IMG/VR virus record: IMGVR_UViG_3300020055_000131
Location: 1 to 26,547 of that record
DNA length: 26,547 bases
Direction: 5' to 3' (one strand)
DNA from: a virus
Position numbers and translations under genes: made by a program
The notes under the pieces: model-generated
Told to the model about the DNA's origin: nothing
What the model saw: only the letters and a program-made list of their open reading frames with translations
The model's database searches: none
In this document: positions 3,027 to 21,438 of the stretch, one piece after another
Layout: the number at the start of each line of letters is the position of its first letter
Numbering within the stretch: position 1 is the first letter of the stretch

Positions 3027-5831
3027 TTACAGGTTGAACAAGAATTTTCTAACTTGCTCTAATGGCAGACTTTTTTGACAGGCCCTACATTTGACTTGAT
3101 TTTTTGAGTAAATTTGTTCGTCGCCACAATGCTGACAGACAAAATAGTTGAATCCTCGACCCACATCAAGAGCTTCAGTCTGAAGAACAGCTCCATGTGA
3201 ACGTGAAGTAGGGGCAGCTGCGCCGCCGTAGCCAGCAGTAAGTGCTTTTTCCATGCGCTTTGGGTCAAAGTGTTTAGACTCAACAGCAGCTGTGCGTACA
3301 TTCCAATCTTCATCATTAAGTGCTCTTTCCATATGCTCTGGACCAAAGTGTTTAGACTTAACGGCAGCTGTGCGTACATCCTCATTTTCATCATTAAGTG
3401 CTCTTTCCATATGCTCTGGACCAAAGTGTTTAGACTCAACAGCAGTTGTGCGTACATCCTCACTTTCATCATTAAGTGCTCTTTCTATATGTTCTGGACC
3501 AAAGTGTTCAGACTCAATAGCAGAGTAGCGTACCATATCACTTTTATCATTAAGTGCTTGTTCTATATGTTCTGGACCAAAGTGCTTAGACTGAACGGCA
3601 GCCATCCGTACACTCTTATTTTCATCATTAAATGCTTTTTCCATGTGCTCTGGACCAAAGTGTTTAGACTTAACGGCAGCCATCCGTGCACTCCAATCTT
3701 CATCATTAAGTGCTCTTTCCATATGCTCTGGACCAAAGTGTTTAGACTTAACGGCAGCACGGCGTACACCTTCATTTTCATCATTAAGTGCTTGTTCTAT
3801 ATGTTCTGGACCAAAGCGCTTAGATTCAACGGCAGCACGGCGCACACTCCAATCTTCATCATTAAACGCTTTTTCCATGTGCTCTGGACCAAAGTGTTTA
3901 GACTCAATAGCAGCTGTGCGTACACCTTTATTTTTATCATTAAGTGCTCTTTCCATGTGCTCTGGACCAAAGCGTTTAGACTGAACGGCAGCACGGCGCA
4001 CATTCCAATCTTCATCATTAAATGCTTTTTCCATGTGCTCTGGACCAAAGTGTTTAGACTTAACGGCTATTTCTCTCTGTCCAATAGAATTATTATCTAA
4101 AATATGATGTATATGTTCTGGTTTAATGTGATTGTCGAAATCATTAAACTTCAACATCGGTGATAAATCGCTATTACTTATATTGGGGTCAATTAAAGCT
4201 GAATTTATATTTTCATGCTTATCTAGGTATTCCGCCAACCTTTCTACGTCATCATTGTGGTTAGCGATCGCGTCTCCATGCCTATTAGATTCTCCACTAT
4301 AATGATCAAACCTATTAAGGGGGTCTATATCTGGCTTCTTATTTAGTAGTCTTTTCTGCTTATCCTCGGGCAAATCTTTAAGACTAAAATTACTATCTGC
4401 TCTATATCCGCCACCCATTAATGCTTTTACGTGGTCGCTCTCTAATAATGGGATAATATGCTTATGGTATCTTTCTGCTGGTTTTTCATTACCGCGACCT
4501 TTCATCTCACCTAAATCGCCATTATTGTTTATGAAAGTAAGATGTGGTTCATGATATGTTTTATCGCCAACCTTCTTTTCTTTACGTAGGGAGAGAATAT
4601 CATCGCCTTCTTCTTCAGATTCCGCATTTCCACAATGCCCCATTGCTTTAGCTTCTTTAGGGCAACTCCCTTTACCTAAGGAATACCACGCGTATCCGTC
4701 ACCTGTGTCCATTAGCTTCTTACCATCAGGTTCTACAAGTTGTGGATTATCTGCAGCTCGTTTTTCTGCCACATCATTAGCTTGATGTAGCATATCCATG
4801 CCAGTATCGAAGTCATGCCCTCTACCTAAACGTAAATTCTGCAACTCTTTATGTTGATCCTTTACAGCACCAATATGCTCTAATTTTTCACGATTTTCGT
4901 CATTAAAGATAGAAGGATCTTTCTTATAGGAGCGCGCAAACCACAAGGCTAGATCGTCACGATTAAGATGTTTAGAAACCCAATCAGTAACATCTTTATT
5001 CCCCGTCATCTGCGCTATTTGCTTTTTTGAGGCTTTCTCTAATGCCTCCATATTGTATTCAGCAGTAAGTGCTTTAATTAGCTGATTTATATTGTGAAGA
5101 TTATTGATTAACTTTTGTCTAGCAGCCTTTTTAATTAGCTCTTCTGCTTCGTATTCCGGTAGAGCTTTCTCTAACCCAACCTGTCTAGCTAGATTATTGA
5201 TCTCTCTAAAGTTGTCGATAATTGTGGATGCCTGGACATGGCGAGTGATCTTTCTGAAAGAAGGCACATCTGTCTTAACAAGGTGCTCTACAGACTTAAT
5301 AAGCCTTCTATCCTCTTCCCAGGTGTTATTAGACTTATTAAGACTAAGTGGCTCTACTAAAGTAGCTTGATTAGCAGGAGTAAACGTGAGGGCTACTGAG
5401 TGTATCTTCGTGCGAGCAAGTAGGTTGTTATCCTTTATTCCTCTAGCTACTACACCGCCTTCTACTGATGCTTTAATTTTTAGGGGGACATCTGATTTAT
5501 GAATGTTTCTTAGGATTGCTGCGGCGGCTTTTGCATTAGGGTGCTCTTCGTCATCGTAGAGGAAGCCTTTGCAATATATAAATGGTGCTTTTACCTTTTC
5601 CCAGTAATATCTGTGACGATCGTCTTCGCAATCATCTTTACTAAAGATCTTCTTCGCACCAGTTACTCTACCGACACAATTATAAAAGCCTTTACCGTGG
5701 TTGTCATTGAAGCGTCCACGTCCAGCCTCTAAATCACTAATATCAGCACCCTCAACTGACAACATCTCACCTTGAGTGTCGCGCAGCTGTGATCCTGCTA
5801 TCATATCTATTTCAAGTGGTTTTTTAGACAT
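3027..5831 (-). CDS. Prohead protease fused to PcfJ-like domain and HEAT/LRV repeats
   Basis: This 934-residue protein is far longer than normal prohead proteases, which are about 200-350 residues. Residues 1-165 look like the head maturation protease: a DNHG segment with His45, and KIKASVEGG with Ser122 as the putative catalytic serine, followed by HSVALTFTPAN. Residues 170-252 are helical and core-like. Residues 376-476 (GDGYAWYSLGKGSC, then GHCGNA, DDILSLR, GEMKGRGN, YH) resemble PcfJ-type domains of unknown role. Residues 569-854 are eleven 26-residue repeats. Residues 862-890 copy the N-terminal motif of the capsid protein, and 899-918 form a CxxC...CxxC zinc ribbon. The protease would cut scaffold and capsid inside the prohead; the cargo's job is unknown. 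KALTAxY occurs on both sides of the extra segment, at 253-259 and 862-868. The start codon lies in an inverted repeat. The protease call is an inference from motifs and gene order. Confidence 0.72.
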   Translation of the reverse strand: MSKKPLEIDMIAGSQLRDTQGEMLSVEGADISDLEAGRGRFNDNHGKGFYNCVGRVTGAKKIFSKDDCEDDRHRYYWEKVKAPFIYCKGFLYDDEEHPNAKAAAAILRNIHKSDVPLKIKASVEGGVVARGIKDNNLLARTKIHSVALTFTPANQATLVEPLSLNKSNNTWEEDRRLIKSVEHLVKTDVPSFRKITRHVQASTIIDNFREINNLARQVGLEKALPEYEAEELIKKAARQKLINNLHNINQLIKALTAEYNMEALEKASKKQIAQMTGNKDVTDWVSKHLNRDDLALWFARSYKKDPSIFNDENREKLEHIGAVKDQHKELQNLRLGRGHDFDTGMDMLHQANDVAEKRAADNPQLVEPDGKKLMDTGDGYAWYSLGKGSCPKEAKAMGHCGNAESEEEGDDILSLRKEKKVGDKTYHEPHLTFINNNGDLGEMKGRGNEKPAERYHKHIIPLLESDHVKALMGGGYRADSNFSLKDLPEDKQKRLLNKKPDIDPLNRFDHYSGESNRHGDAIANHNDDVERLAEYLDKHENINSALIDPNISNSDLSPMLKFNDFDNHIKPEHIHHILDNNSIGQREIAVKSKHFGPEHMEKAFNDEDWNVRRAAVQSKRFGPEHMERALNDKNKGVRTAAIESKHFGPEHMEKAFNDEDWSVRRAAVESKRFGPEHIEQALNDENEGVRRAAVKSKHFGPEHMERALNDEDWSARMAAVKSKHFGPEHMEKAFNDENKSVRMAAVQSKHFGPEHIEQALNDKSDMVRYSAIESEHFGPEHIERALNDESEDVRTTAVESKHFGPEHMERALNDENEDVRTAAVKSKHFGPEHMERALNDEDWNVRTAAVESKHFDPKRMEKALTAGYGGAAAPTSRSHGAVLQTEALDVGRGFNYFVCQHCGDEQIYSKNQVKCRACQKSLPLEQVRKFLFNL
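3228..3248 (-). repeat. 21-base direct repeat, copy at far side of insert
   Basis: This sequence encodes KALTAGY (residues 862-868) and matches the copy at 5055..5075 at 19 of 21 positions, including 16 identical bases in a row. The two copies are in frame and in the same direction, 1827 bases apart, and bracket the PcfJ-like and repeat region of the protease gene. Confidence 0.75.
3270..4049 (-). repeat. Ten tandem 78-bp units encoding HEAT/LRV-like repeats
   Basis: Ten in-frame units of exactly 78 bp encode 26-residue repeats beginning at Phe595 and every 26 residues to Phe829. The consensus is FGPEHMExALNDEDxxVRxA followed by AVxSKx. A diverged copy (residues 569-594) comes before them, and a truncated one (FDPKRMEKAL, 855-864) runs straight into the capsid-like motif. 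The pattern of two short helices with a conserved VR and AA is typical of HEAT or leucine-rich-repeat-variant solenoids, which usually bind other proteins or nucleic acid. The high nucleotide similarity between units suggests recent expansion, and copy number may vary between relatives. Confidence 0.9.
5055..5075 (-). repeat. 21-base direct repeat, copy at near side of insert
   Basis: This sequence encodes KALTAEY (residues 253-259) of the protease fusion. It is the partner of 3228..3248 and differs from it at two bases. It marks the point where the normal protease/core sequence gives way to the extra domains. Confidence 0.75.
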
Positions 5832-17466: not shown

Positions 17467-20400
17467 TCATGAAATTCTTTCAATACTCGTTAACTCTAGT
17501 GAGACTGGTGTCTTCCACCCTTCTTTCAATTTTCCTTTAACATATATAACACTATTTACTGGAAATCTCAAGGCTTCTTTTCTATCCCACATTACTGATT
17601 CAATATCGTTATACCCATCAGATAGTTCGACTTTTAACATGGAGTATGGTCTTTTACTCTTACGTGATACTCCACTCTTAGTATTTGAACCATTAAACAG
17701 CATGAAAAGACCAACCTCTTTAGAGTAATCTTTTTCAAGTAAGCCAGCTGCCACATTGATGTTTCTAATGATTGGTACCTCACCATCAAAGAAAGGTATA
17801 TTCTTACTCTTTGTAACGGTTAACCCATCTTTATTAGATAAGATGAAGTTTCTTATTGCTTCATCGGTTAGTAGGGTCTTATTGAAACACTTATTAGTAT
17901 CTCTTTCCATGAGGAATAGGTTGACCGGGTCTGGATTAAATAGAGTTTCATTGAACTTGTTGCATTTTCGCTTTTTACGATAGTACTCCATGAGCTCTAA
18001 CTTAGCAGTATGGTAATCAACATCCTTACGCATGAAGCAGTCTACAGCTCTTCCCTTTATGAGTGCCTCAAAATGCCCCTTATTTACTTTTGAATGTATG
18101 ACCTTTTCAAGGTAGTCATCGATATCAGTAAATGGGCCTTTCTTAACCAGTTCGTTAATACTTGCAGCACCTACCCTTTTTAAAGTTGATAATGGGGCAA
18201 GTATCTTATCACCCAATATCTCGAAGTTCTTGGTCGGCTTTGCAAGAGATGGGGGAAGGATGAGATCGCCTAGTAATGACACGTAGTGCCTAATCTTAGT
18301 CTCTTTGTCTGTGTTGTTTAGTTCTGAAACCCACCACTCTAGTTTATAGTGATGCTTTAAGTACATAGTAATATAACCTAGTTCTGCATAACAGCGAGAG
18401 TGAGATCTGTTGAAGGAGTATCGCGCAAACGCTTGAATCATGTCACAGACAACTTGCTGCTGTTCTGGTGTCCATCCGCGAGGTGTAGTGTTCTGGCGAA
18501 TCTTCTCAAACGCCTCCATCATCACGTCTTGCTTCTTCTTAGCGATAGCACCACGTATACGATCTGACTCTTCAAGTGTGTAGCCACCGTAGTCAACCAA
18601 GAATTTCATAACCTCTTCCTGATAGACAAATACACCGTTAGATGTGCACGTGGCTAGATCTGGATGTAAATATGAAAGTTTTCGTTCCTTATTCCTGACA
18701 TCCATATAATATTGCGCAGCTGATACATTGTCATCTAGCGATATCTCGTCATTAACAAAGGGAGCATCTAGTGCACCAGGTCGACATAAGGCTGTCATTG
18801 CAGACAAGTGCTCTCTCTGAGTAGGAGCGAATTGCTGTATGTAGCCTTTAATTAGCGACGTATTAAACTGAAACGATGAATCAGTTTTCTTATTGTAAAA
18901 ATCAGTGTAAACAGATGAATCTTCTGGCAAACGATAGATCAACGCAGTACCAAACTCATCTTCTTCTAGTAAGTCTATTCCATGGCGCTCTTTTACTAGA
19001 TCAATACAGTCAGAAACCGCCTGGATCGTAGTTACACCGAGAATATCAGCCTTAACTAGATTATTCCTCTCTACCATAGAAGCTTCATATTGTGTTACAA
19101 GTATGTTCTTGCCGATATGTTTATCATGCATTCTAAGAGTGGGGGTTCTAGATCTTGATAGGTCTAATGTTGATACAACGAATGCGGATGCATGTCTAGA
19201 CCAGCCTCTAACAATGCCGATAAGGCGCTTAACCATATTCTCAACCTGAGAATACTGCTCAAAGAACAATCTAAGCTCCGGTATGGTCTCAATTGCACCG
19301 GGTGTATATTCACCCTCTCTATTAGTGAAACCATACAAGAAATCGTACTCTTCAACGCCCTGTGGGGAGTCTGGAATTAGGTCACAGACACTCTTTACAA
19401 CAGGATCATTACGGTTCTTACCATATAGTGCCCACATAGCATCTTTTATCGCGTTCTTTGTCTTCATCTTAGAGAACGTACATATCTGAGCAAAACCATC
19501 ACCATATTTCTTATCTAAGTATTTCAATATGCCTATTCGGTTACCGAAGTCACAATCAATATCGGGGAATGAACCCGCTGCAATACGAGCATGAGATAAG
19601 AAACGTTCAAATGGTAAGTCTGCACTTACAGGATCGATATGTATGATTTTAAGATAGTAAGAGATTAGGCACCCACCAGCAGAACCACGACCAATATTCT
19701 GTAAGATTCCTTGGGAACGTGCATAAGAGCATATATCTTCATAAAGTAAGAAGTACGGTATGAAGTTGATAACATCATTTTTCATGATGACATCGATTTC
19801 TTTTTTGAATCGATCTATATAAACTTTATCATCTCGCCATCGACCGTGCTTTTTGCAGAGCTCTACAAGATAATAGTATGTCTGCTTATCATAATCATCA
19901 GTTTTAGCCTTAATGTGAGCAGGTATATCAATCTCTGGCATGTGATAATCATACTCAATATTGATTTGTTTAGCCTGCTCTACAATTTGTAGTGTGTTAT
20001 TAGACCAGCTATTGAATATGTCTAAGTTTAGCCTATCGCCTAGATGAGACTTAAGTATTGTGTATATGTCTCTACCAGTCTTCGCATGATACGACTCACT
20101 GTAACACTTGCCACTAGTGTGTGAGTTTCTCATAATTACGTCTTGAAGAAGCTTATCCTCTGACTGAATAAAGCTTGCTCCACATGACGGTATACACTTT
20201 ACCCTATATTTGTCAGCCATATCTAGCATAAAATTATTATATGCTTTCGCTAAATTACCATCTATTATTACTTTGTTTTTTGTAATTCTTTGGAAACCTC
20301 GTTTAGGACTATAAGAATAGTGGATGTCGGCTGCAACGAATTCAATAAGTAGGCTTTGTTGTCCAAATATGTCGTAAAGCTCACAAAATCCAGCTTGTGC

Positions 20401-21438
20401 AGAGTCCAAGTCACCCTCTCTAATGAATTTCGCAATTGCTGTATTCGTTTCGCCCCCTGTGGAGAAGATAACTCCCTCTGTAAGCTCTTTGGTAAATGAT
20501 TCTCTTCGCAGTATTGGCCTATTAATTCCATCAATCTCCAGTGCATTCTCGTATCCTATAGATGATAGGTGCATTAAGTTATAGTAACCCTGTGTAGATG
20601 TTGCCCATGCATTTATGGCAAACAATTCATCTTCTTCAATCATATATAGTCCAACACCGGGCACACGAGTGATATCTGAATAAACACCTCTCATCTTAAA
20701 CAGTGAAATACCAGAACCATGATCAGCAATTCCAAATCCAGGTATTTTGTTTTGTTTACACCACTCATCCCACTCTTCAACAGTAGGAACTGATTCTGAC
20801 ATGTCATACATTGAGTGTAGATGTAGCTGGGCTGGTTCTATTAGATGTGATAGATCTTCGTTCTTTACTTCATGTTTAGCTATTGTATGATTAAGATCTT
20901 CGCCTAGAAGAGTACCTACATGTTTATCTACTTCAATAGTTGCTTGAATATCCGATAAAGCGTCATGCGCCTTGATCTTAACACCCCAATGATTAGCGAG
21001 CACTTCTAGCTTCATACTCTTAGTGCCGATCATTGACTTTACTTCTTTAGCACGCAAAAAAGTGTCGTGTATCTGAAGATCAAATATACGGAAGAAATCT
21101 TTAGGACGACCACACTTATTGAACAGCGCAGATAAGAACTGTCGATCGAAATTTACATTGAAACCAGAGATAATAAACTTAGTATTGAAGGAGTCAAGGT
21201 AGTTGATAAACTTTTCAAGAAGCTCTTCTTGCGTCTGGAAAGTCTTCATTCTATCTATAGTAATACCGTGTACTTTAATAGCCTCTTCTTGGATAGCATC
21301 CCAGTTCTTTGGTTGGCAGAACTCATTAAATGGTTCCATCTCTGTACCGTTTATCGCTGGGATACAAGATACCTGAACGACATCGTGTTTATCAGAATAC
21401 AGACCAGTTGTCTCTGTATCGATCCATAAAAAATCCAT
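17467..21438 (-). CDS. DNA polymerase III alpha subunit with N-terminal exonuclease
   Basis: This 1323-residue replicase is of the bacterial C family. Domain order: a DnaQ-type DEDDh 3'-5' proofreading exonuclease (IDTETTGL with Asp7/Glu9, NFDRQF with Asp98, HDALSDI with His158/Asp163); a PHP domain from about 203 (QLHLHSMYD, GIADHGSG); the polymerase core with IGRGSAGGCLISYYL at 582 and the catalytic PDIDCDF at 625-631, and KADILGV for the third aspartate; a helix-hairpin-helix (LKRVGAASINELVKKGPF); and a C-terminal OB fold. Exonuclease ahead of PHP in one chain differs from DnaE, with its separate exonuclease, and from PolC, with the exonuclease inside PHP. It copies the phage genome, and the clamp and loader are not in this window. 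The ribosome binding site is AGGAGGTTTAC before ATG. Confidence 0.95.
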   Translation of the reverse strand: MDFLWIDTETTGLYSDKHDVVQVSCIPAINGTEMEPFNEFCQPKNWDAIQEEAIKVHGITIDRMKTFQTQEELLEKFINYLDSFNTKFIISGFNVNFDRQFLSALFNKCGRPKDFFRIFDLQIHDTFLRAKEVKSMIGTKSMKLEVLANHWGVKIKAHDALSDIQATIEVDKHVGTLLGEDLNHTIAKHEVKNEDLSHLIEPAQLHLHSMYDMSESVPTVEEWDEWCKQNKIPGFGIADHGSGISLFKMRGVYSDITRVPGVGLYMIEEDELFAINAWATSTQGYYNLMHLSSIGYENALEIDGINRPILRRESFTKELTEGVIFSTGGETNTAIAKFIREGDLDSAQAGFCELYDIFGQQSLLIEFVAADIHYSYSPKRGFQRITKNKVIIDGNLAKAYNNFMLDMADKYRVKCIPSCGASFIQSEDKLLQDVIMRNSHTSGKCYSESYHAKTGRDIYTILKSHLGDRLNLDIFNSWSNNTLQIVEQAKQINIEYDYHMPEIDIPAHIKAKTDDYDKQTYYYLVELCKKHGRWRDDKVYIDRFKKEIDVIMKNDVINFIPYFLLYEDICSYARSQGILQNIGRGSAGGCLISYYLKIIHIDPVSADLPFERFLSHARIAAGSFPDIDCDFGNRIGILKYLDKKYGDGFAQICTFSKMKTKNAIKDAMWALYGKNRNDPVVKSVCDLIPDSPQGVEEYDFLYGFTNREGEYTPGAIETIPELRLFFEQYSQVENMVKRLIGIVRGWSRHASAFVVSTLDLSRSRTPTLRMHDKHIGKNILVTQYEASMVERNNLVKADILGVTTIQAVSDCIDLVKERHGIDLLEEDEFGTALIYRLPEDSSVYTDFYNKKTDSSFQFNTSLIKGYIQQFAPTQREHLSAMTALCRPGALDAPFVNDEISLDDNVSAAQYYMDVRNKERKLSYLHPDLATCTSNGVFVYQEEVMKFLVDYGGYTLEESDRIRGAIAKKKQDVMMEAFEKIRQNTTPRGWTPEQQQVVCDMIQAFARYSFNRSHSRCYAELGYITMYLKHHYKLEWWVSELNNTDKETKIRHYVSLLGDLILPPSLAKPTKNFEILGDKILAPLSTLKRVGAASINELVKKGPFTDIDDYLEKVIHSKVNKGHFEALIKGRAVDCFMRKDVDYHTAKLELMEYYRKKRKCNKFNETLFNPDPVNLFLMERDTNKCFNKTLLTDEAIRNFILSNKDGLTVTKSKNIPFFDGEVPIIRNINVAAGLLEKDYSKEVGLFMLFNGSNTKSGVSRKSKRPYSMLKVELSDGYNDIESVMWDRKEALRFPVNSVIYVKGKLKEGWKTPVSLELTSIERIS

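Follow-up and report, generated by a model that had tools for sequence, protein, structure and literature searches.

The capsid maturation (prohead) protease of the virus studied here contains a slot between its core-like helix and its tail, and we consider it probable that, by means of the exchangeable contents of this slot, the protease acts as a modular carrier of head-packaged cargo. The window, a stretch of 26,547 nucleotides (positions 1 to 26,547 of IMG/VR record IMGVR_UViG_3300020055_000131), carries in the slot a cargo of 600 residues, made up of a PcfJ-like domain and HEAT/LRV-type repeats; when related loci were compared, the slot was empty in some and held unrelated domains in others. 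From the same comparisons, the slot contents are seen to have been swapped many times by recombination, with one recent breakpoint at the KALTA motif.

Organisation of the protease gene

The protease gene was located at 3027-5831 on the minus strand, as are its parts and the capsid protein gene described below, and it encodes 934 amino acids in a single open reading frame. Portal/terminase genes lie on one side and the major capsid protein gene (138-1589; PHROG 752, E 1e-59) on the other. The first 165 residues (5337-5831) were assigned to the prohead protease domain by alignment and by a match to PHROG 1028, 'head maturation protease' (E 8e-10, covering residues 86-160), in agreement with what the preliminary description of this DNA had claimed for the host protein. 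A match to PHROG 38466 was also obtained (E 5e-4), and tblastn retrieved annotated prohead proteases of Myxococcus phage Mx1 and of Brochothrix and Enterococcus phages; the protease profile gave no match to solved structures. The domain is 60-70% identical between the window and its relatives, and H45, S122 and H144, which were invariant in their alignment (n = 7 sequences), are the putative catalytic residues.

The protease domain is followed by a core-like helical region (residues 166-252; 5076-5336), which was delimited by alignment and border comparison and ends in a conserved helix of the KINxLIKAL type. The left KALTAEY copy comes next (residues 253-259; 5055-5075), at the point where empty relatives read on as KALTAGYG. 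The PcfJ-like cargo module (residues 259-505; 4317-5057), recognised from alignments, hhalign and a structural model, has its HCGN core at about 4380-4715 and is joined by a linker (4083-4316), a low-confidence stretch of the model, to HEAT/LRV-type repeats (3249-4082) with a period of 26 amino acids, or 78 bases. The tail motif, KALTAGYGGAAAPTSRSHGAVLQTE followed by A (residues 862-887; 3171-3248), includes the right KALTAGY copy (3228-3248) and is conserved in relatives and in the capsid protein. The chain finishes with a zinc ribbon, C..C(17)C..C (3030-3137), a predicted propeptide whose cysteines were invariant in the tail alignment. The base composition of the cargo showed no clear foreign signal (GC 0.38-0.43, compared with 0.39 for the window). 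Elsewhere in the window, 17467-21438 encodes a DNA polymerase III alpha-type protein whose single chain includes a PHP domain as well as an exonuclease (RNase T) at the N-terminus.

The tail motif and predicted cleavage

Wherever the C-terminus of a relative was seen, the tail consisted of KALTAGYGG..P..GGvlQxE, then S, and the zinc ribbon. Of 60 loci with a capsid gene, some of them duplicates, 59 encode a capsid protein that has the motif KAxTAGYGGAGxPT..GGV[LI]QxE, again followed by S, at its N-terminus, and a diverged form of the motif was found in the capsid protein of Mx1. In the capsid protein of the window it reads KAITAGYGYAGRPTDLTYGGVIQTE followed by S (residues 28-53; 1431-1508) and, by motif comparison, is a predicted maturation cleavage site. 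Among the genes of the window, AGYG followed by VxQTE was limited to two places, the protease tail and the capsid protein.

The tail motif is most likely a maturation cleavage site with the zinc ribbon as its propeptide, which would account for KALTAGYG being found after every cargo. As the same motif also lies at the N-terminus of the capsid protein, the right KALTA copy is probably functional and not merely a scar. The QxE motif followed by S or A, common to the protease tail and the capsid protein, is suggestive of cleavage after Glu in both the capsid protein and the protease itself. SPN3US gp245 cuts after A-X-E, with a preference for Ser at the following position, and cleaves a C-terminal propeptide of 64 residues from itself (PMC10052503); self-cleavage of the window protease is predicted by analogy after E886. 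SPN3US gp245 and T4 gp21 (PMC10052503, PMC9026906) resemble the window protease in the predicted cut after Glu and the removal of a C-terminal propeptide; they differ in that no cargo domain has been described inside the protease and that the motif is A-X-E rather than GGV[LI]QxE followed by S. In three relatives (L031, L046 and L084) Q takes the place of the Glu at the cleavage position (VIQPQS or VIQTQS); self-cleavage may have been lost in them and so may not occur in every relative. Two of these three have a PcfJ module after the motif.

Empty and filled forms among relatives

A search of IMG/VR with a profile of the protease domain gave 80 loci, which together with loci from other searches amounted to 74 distinct proteins. 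The clade with the slot-bearing protease is a large group of uncultivated bacterial viruses, and only two relatives were found in genome contigs, in Saprospiraceae and Cytophagales bins.

The middle region of the window protein, previously proposed to be an insert, is indeed missing from shorter relatives of 321-348 amino acids, in which the protease helix continues directly into the tail (KINELIKALTAGYGG in L013, with the junction KINELI-KALTAGYGGAG). The gap between helix and tail is 2-3 residues in seven proteins (L013, L014, L054, L059, L062, L069 and L078) and 8-28 residues in four (L018, L019, L033 and L016). In L052 and L072 the slot is empty and an extension of about 110 residues follows the zinc ribbon, which gives cargo a second location.

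Slot contents were tallied over the 69 proteins placed on the protease tree. Transglycosylase-type (SLT) cargo was the commonest (34/69), followed by a small helical domain (13/69), the PcfJ-like module (5/69; the window, L036, L047, L111 and L113), other inserts (3/69) and a GNAT acetyltransferase (1/69; L071), while the slot was empty or nearly so in the remaining 13. One clade therefore holds at least six kinds of slot content, counting the unassigned inserts and the empty state. The SLT cargos matched PF01464 in 6 of 29 cases (best E 1.1e-6) and have an invariant catalytic Glu, E79; the top Foldseek rows were Slt70, Slt and Cj0843 with probabilities of 0.96-1.00, though with E values of 0.06-0.1. 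No copy of the transglycosylase was found elsewhere in ten contigs of phages with an empty or differently filled slot, three of them 166-176 kb long. L008 (6745-7443) and other transglycosylase cargos start with a Lys-rich and then hydrophobic stretch with an A-x-A-like end (EKGLKEAMLGAAMSGAAALSPQAANA), and this stretch resembles a signal peptide or a membrane anchor.

Cargo was also found at other places in the chain. In L031 and L084 the PcfJ-repeat module comes after the tail motif and before the zinc ribbon. The putative prohead protease of the more distant Mx1 (OR576727; 1239 amino acids) is a related protease with a similar motif and, like the window protein, has a large extra region, here of about 930 residues without a clear domain match, but placed after the motif instead of before it. 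In L111 and L113 (protease gene from 3981), the order PcfJ, repeats, tail is found again in a prohead protease that is more distantly related. Their contigs are 99% identical and the proteases differ by 52 amino acids, or two 26-residue repeats, indicating that repeat number changes fast.

The PcfJ-like cargo

PcfJ is best known from conjugative elements. The description of the cargo as a PcfJ-like domain with a repeat solenoid was upheld by its 26-residue HEAT/LRV-type repeats and by hhalign, in which the core was aligned to nine genuine Pfam PcfJ proteins with a probability of 95.9% over 65 columns (control 0.3%). In this alignment the core of the window, HCGN..LSxR..P..TxI..G.LGE.K..N..P, agreed with the PcfJ core motif EG..M.HC....SLR...T.E/I...G..N..P. 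In single-sequence scans, the window had no PcfJ match (PF14284) over the curated Pfam cut-off, 3 of 45 phage relatives matched PF14284 (best E 0.006), and the module was not named by Pfam, NCBIfam or PHROG; because these scans stay below the Pfam cut-off, the module is called PcfJ-like and not a member of PcfJ. A profile of the module gave no match to solved structures, a Pfam PcfJ search of the contigs of eleven relatives found none, and a scan with the N-terminal patterns of the cargo returned known copies only.

The module occurs widely in large phages, usually as a protein of its own (about 600 amino acids) or in fusion with NUDIX domains and repeats; among phage records, it was found only in gp31 of Salicola phage SCTP-2. 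The large-phage proteins L105 and L151 have a NUDIX-like domain, then the PcfJ-like module and then LRV repeats. The module was modelled (4017-5069) with a pLDDT of 81.7, and all 50 rows of the structural list for its core were GNAT/MYST-like (best HAT1/MYST/GNAT), with Z scores of 5-6.7 and none reaching 8. The best Foldseek E value was 0.04 and the likeness to acetyltransferases is weak; on this model, PcfJ might have a GNAT-like fold.

Exchange of slot contents and the KALTA motif

In a tree built from protease residues 1-205 alone, in which many forks were weak, the window was grouped (support 95/83) with five relatives, four of them empty and the fifth with another insert. At least 12 changes of slot label are needed on this tree, three of them for the PcfJ label; with so many weak forks, 12 is a rough minimum only. 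A single origin of the protease-borne PcfJ modules was without tree support and was not rejected either (AU p 0.095).

Two pairs of close relatives differ at the slot. L036 and L047 are 99.7% identical over 6630 bp, including protease residues 1-210, and then have unrelated slots. The left breakpoint falls about 40 codons ahead of KALTA, within the helix, and identity resumes at the codons for TA of KALTAY/KETAY, the left edge of the PcfJ module. The L047 contig stops 99 bp past this junction, about one assembler k-mer, which could reflect one module in two population variants or an assembly effect. Between L031 and L046, a 1.6-kb PcfJ-repeat module is present or absent while the flanks on both sides are 80-88% identical. 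Contig ends crowd in or just after the slot, with eight at 0.57-1.19 kb from the protease start and then a thinning, which would fit a slot that varies between strains.

The near-identity of the two KALTA copies, noticed at the outset, was borne out. AAAGCACTTACTGCTGAATAC (KALTAEY, residues 253-259) and AAAGCACTTACTGCTGGCTAC (KALTAGY, residues 862-868) lie 609 codons apart and agree at 19 of 21 bases, 16 of them in a row, and all six residues that they share have identical codons. Given the amino-acid match and the codon usage of the window, the agreement is closer than the codon background (P = 0.002 for six of six synonymous codons; P = 0.006 for at least 19 of 21 bases), although these values are post hoc and modest, the identity having been noticed before it was tested. 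As controls, the same motif in the capsid protein gene gave 15-16 of 21 bases and KAFND/RALND of the internal repeats gave 13-16. The copies were identical at 15 of 15 bases within the window and 14 of 15 within L036, compared with 13 of 15 between the two phages; such a pattern would follow if the site already present was duplicated or converted at each insertion, although the counts are low.

The window reads NINQLI-KALTA-EYN, then the cargo, then MEKALTAGYGG, and its left KALTA is homologous in position to KALTAGYG of the empty forms. The identity of the copies could be due to selection on the tail motif and the helix end only, without duplication or recombination at this site, a possibility that we regard as rather unlikely. 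The KAL of the helix end and the KALTAGYG of the tail are each conserved for their own reasons, and in the border comparison KA[LI] at the left copy was the conserved end of the core helix. Selection could account for part of the identity, as the preliminary description allowed. Against selection as the only cause speak the left TAEY, which lies outside the conserved helix in most cargo-bearing relatives, the codon identity, the matches within L036 and the L036/L047 breakpoint at KALTA. A duplication at KALTA, for its part, is suggested by two observations, the left TAEY and the codon identity. The proposal that cargo entered by recombination at KALTA agrees with the right breakpoint of L036 and L047 and not with the left one, and while the insert is genuine, the repeated refilling of the slot does not fit a single insertion event.

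The protease as a probable carrier

As the slot is empty or variously filled in close relatives, the protease probably doubles as a head-loading carrier. It would join the prohead as a core component and bring the cargo along. At maturation, it would cleave at two sites, after GGVIQTE in the capsid protein and after GAVLQTE in its own chain; self-cleavage would take off the zinc ribbon only, leaving the cargo joined to the protease. The cargo would be too big to exit the closed head and so would stay packed with the DNA, to be ejected into the next host. There it could act early, with the transglycosylase type cutting peptidoglycan and the PcfJ and GNAT types acting on host or phage molecules. 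We infer this packaging, cleavage and injection from sequence comparison, and each step has a precedent. Self-cleavage is known for SPN3US gp245, fusions to the capsid targeting sequence are packaged and delivered in T4 (PMC9026906), and P1 DarA is cut by the prohead protease, retained in the head and ejected (PMC12810830).

The cargo could instead be part of a polyprotein, co-translated with the protease and freed by proteolysis to act in the producing cell, for example in assembly or lysis, without being delivered. Use at the time of lysis is conceivable for the commonest cargo, a lytic transglycosylase, and the PcfJ module of L031 and L084, standing after a cleavage-type motif, would be freed if the site worked. 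However, the cleavage Glu is Q in both of these, and the window has no cleavage-type motif ahead of its cargo; there, only the protease tail and the capsid protein contain the motif, if a single QxE match in the polymerase that looks like chance is set aside. We therefore regard this explanation as improbable.

Slightly less probable again is that the variable middle is an assembly part, serving as scaffold or filling the core so as to tune head size or assembly, with a domain make-up largely unrelated to effectors. The slot adjoins the core-like helix, repeat number differs between L111 and L113, and protease-scaffold fusions are known in other phages. Against this, the slot holds enzymes with conserved catalytic residues (the invariant SLT Glu; GNAT), and empty forms with closely related capsid proteins manage without slot content. 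Closely related backbones with an empty slot imply that assembly can do without the cargo, and so point to an accessory role more than to scaffolding. That assemblers fused a protease fragment to an unrelated cargo gene is very improbable: contigs do frequently stop in or near the slot, and L047 does so 99 bp beyond its junction, but the window gene is full length in two IMG/VR contigs of different metagenomes (99.8% identity over 11.7 kb), and L036 and L113 also have this fusion as a single open frame that ends with the same tail.

Comparison with known systems

Effectors known to be delivered from the head are either ejection proteins in their own right or fusions of the MuF/portal type. In P2 gpO and lambda C/Nu3, an N-terminal protease and an assembly region form one chain, as in the window protein, but their C-terminal part is a scaffold, whereas the middle of the window protein and its relatives consists of unrelated enzyme domains that differ between close relatives.

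The MuF polymorphic toxins and polyvalent proteins (PMC5512222, PMC12226406) are similar to the carrier proposed here in being head-associated proteins whose enzyme domains can be swapped and are thought to be packaged and then injected. Their carriers are MuF, portal, vRNAP or Dar-type domains and not the maturation protease, and in our proteins the cargo is inside the chain, between the catalytic domain and the self-cleavage motif, and empty forms occur. Pfam and PHROG scans of the window protein found no MuF, portal or other described carrier domain, and in one of these papers prohead proteases appear only in the reference list. With the T4 internal proteins and Alt (PMC9026906), the window protein shares entry of cargo into the head via the core and processing by the prohead protease, and T4-group phages likewise vary in the proteins carried; in T4, however, these are separate genes with N-terminal targeting peptides cleaved by gp21, while the window gene encodes cargo and protease as a single chain. 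In the open-access papers searched, no account was found of a prohead protease with cargo fused into it or acting as a carrier. The best reading of these likenesses is that the carrier would work like the MuF/polyvalent systems but without their carrier domains.

Implications

Within a single clade of large phages, whose contigs reach 177 kb, the slot may be empty or may hold a transglycosylase, a PcfJ-repeat module, a helical domain or a GNAT domain. A more general reading, which we put forward tentatively and hold to be possible rather than probable, is that the maturation protease of this clade is a delivery platform by which any domain in the slot would be head-loaded, trimmed of the zinc ribbon and injected, with the PcfJ-like core as a new effector class, possibly with an acetyltransferase fold. 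If the carrier model is true, a protease that itself carries the cargo would be a new route of head loading, and reading the slot would be a simple rule for finding early-acting phage proteins. It would also link the PcfJ family to phage virions.
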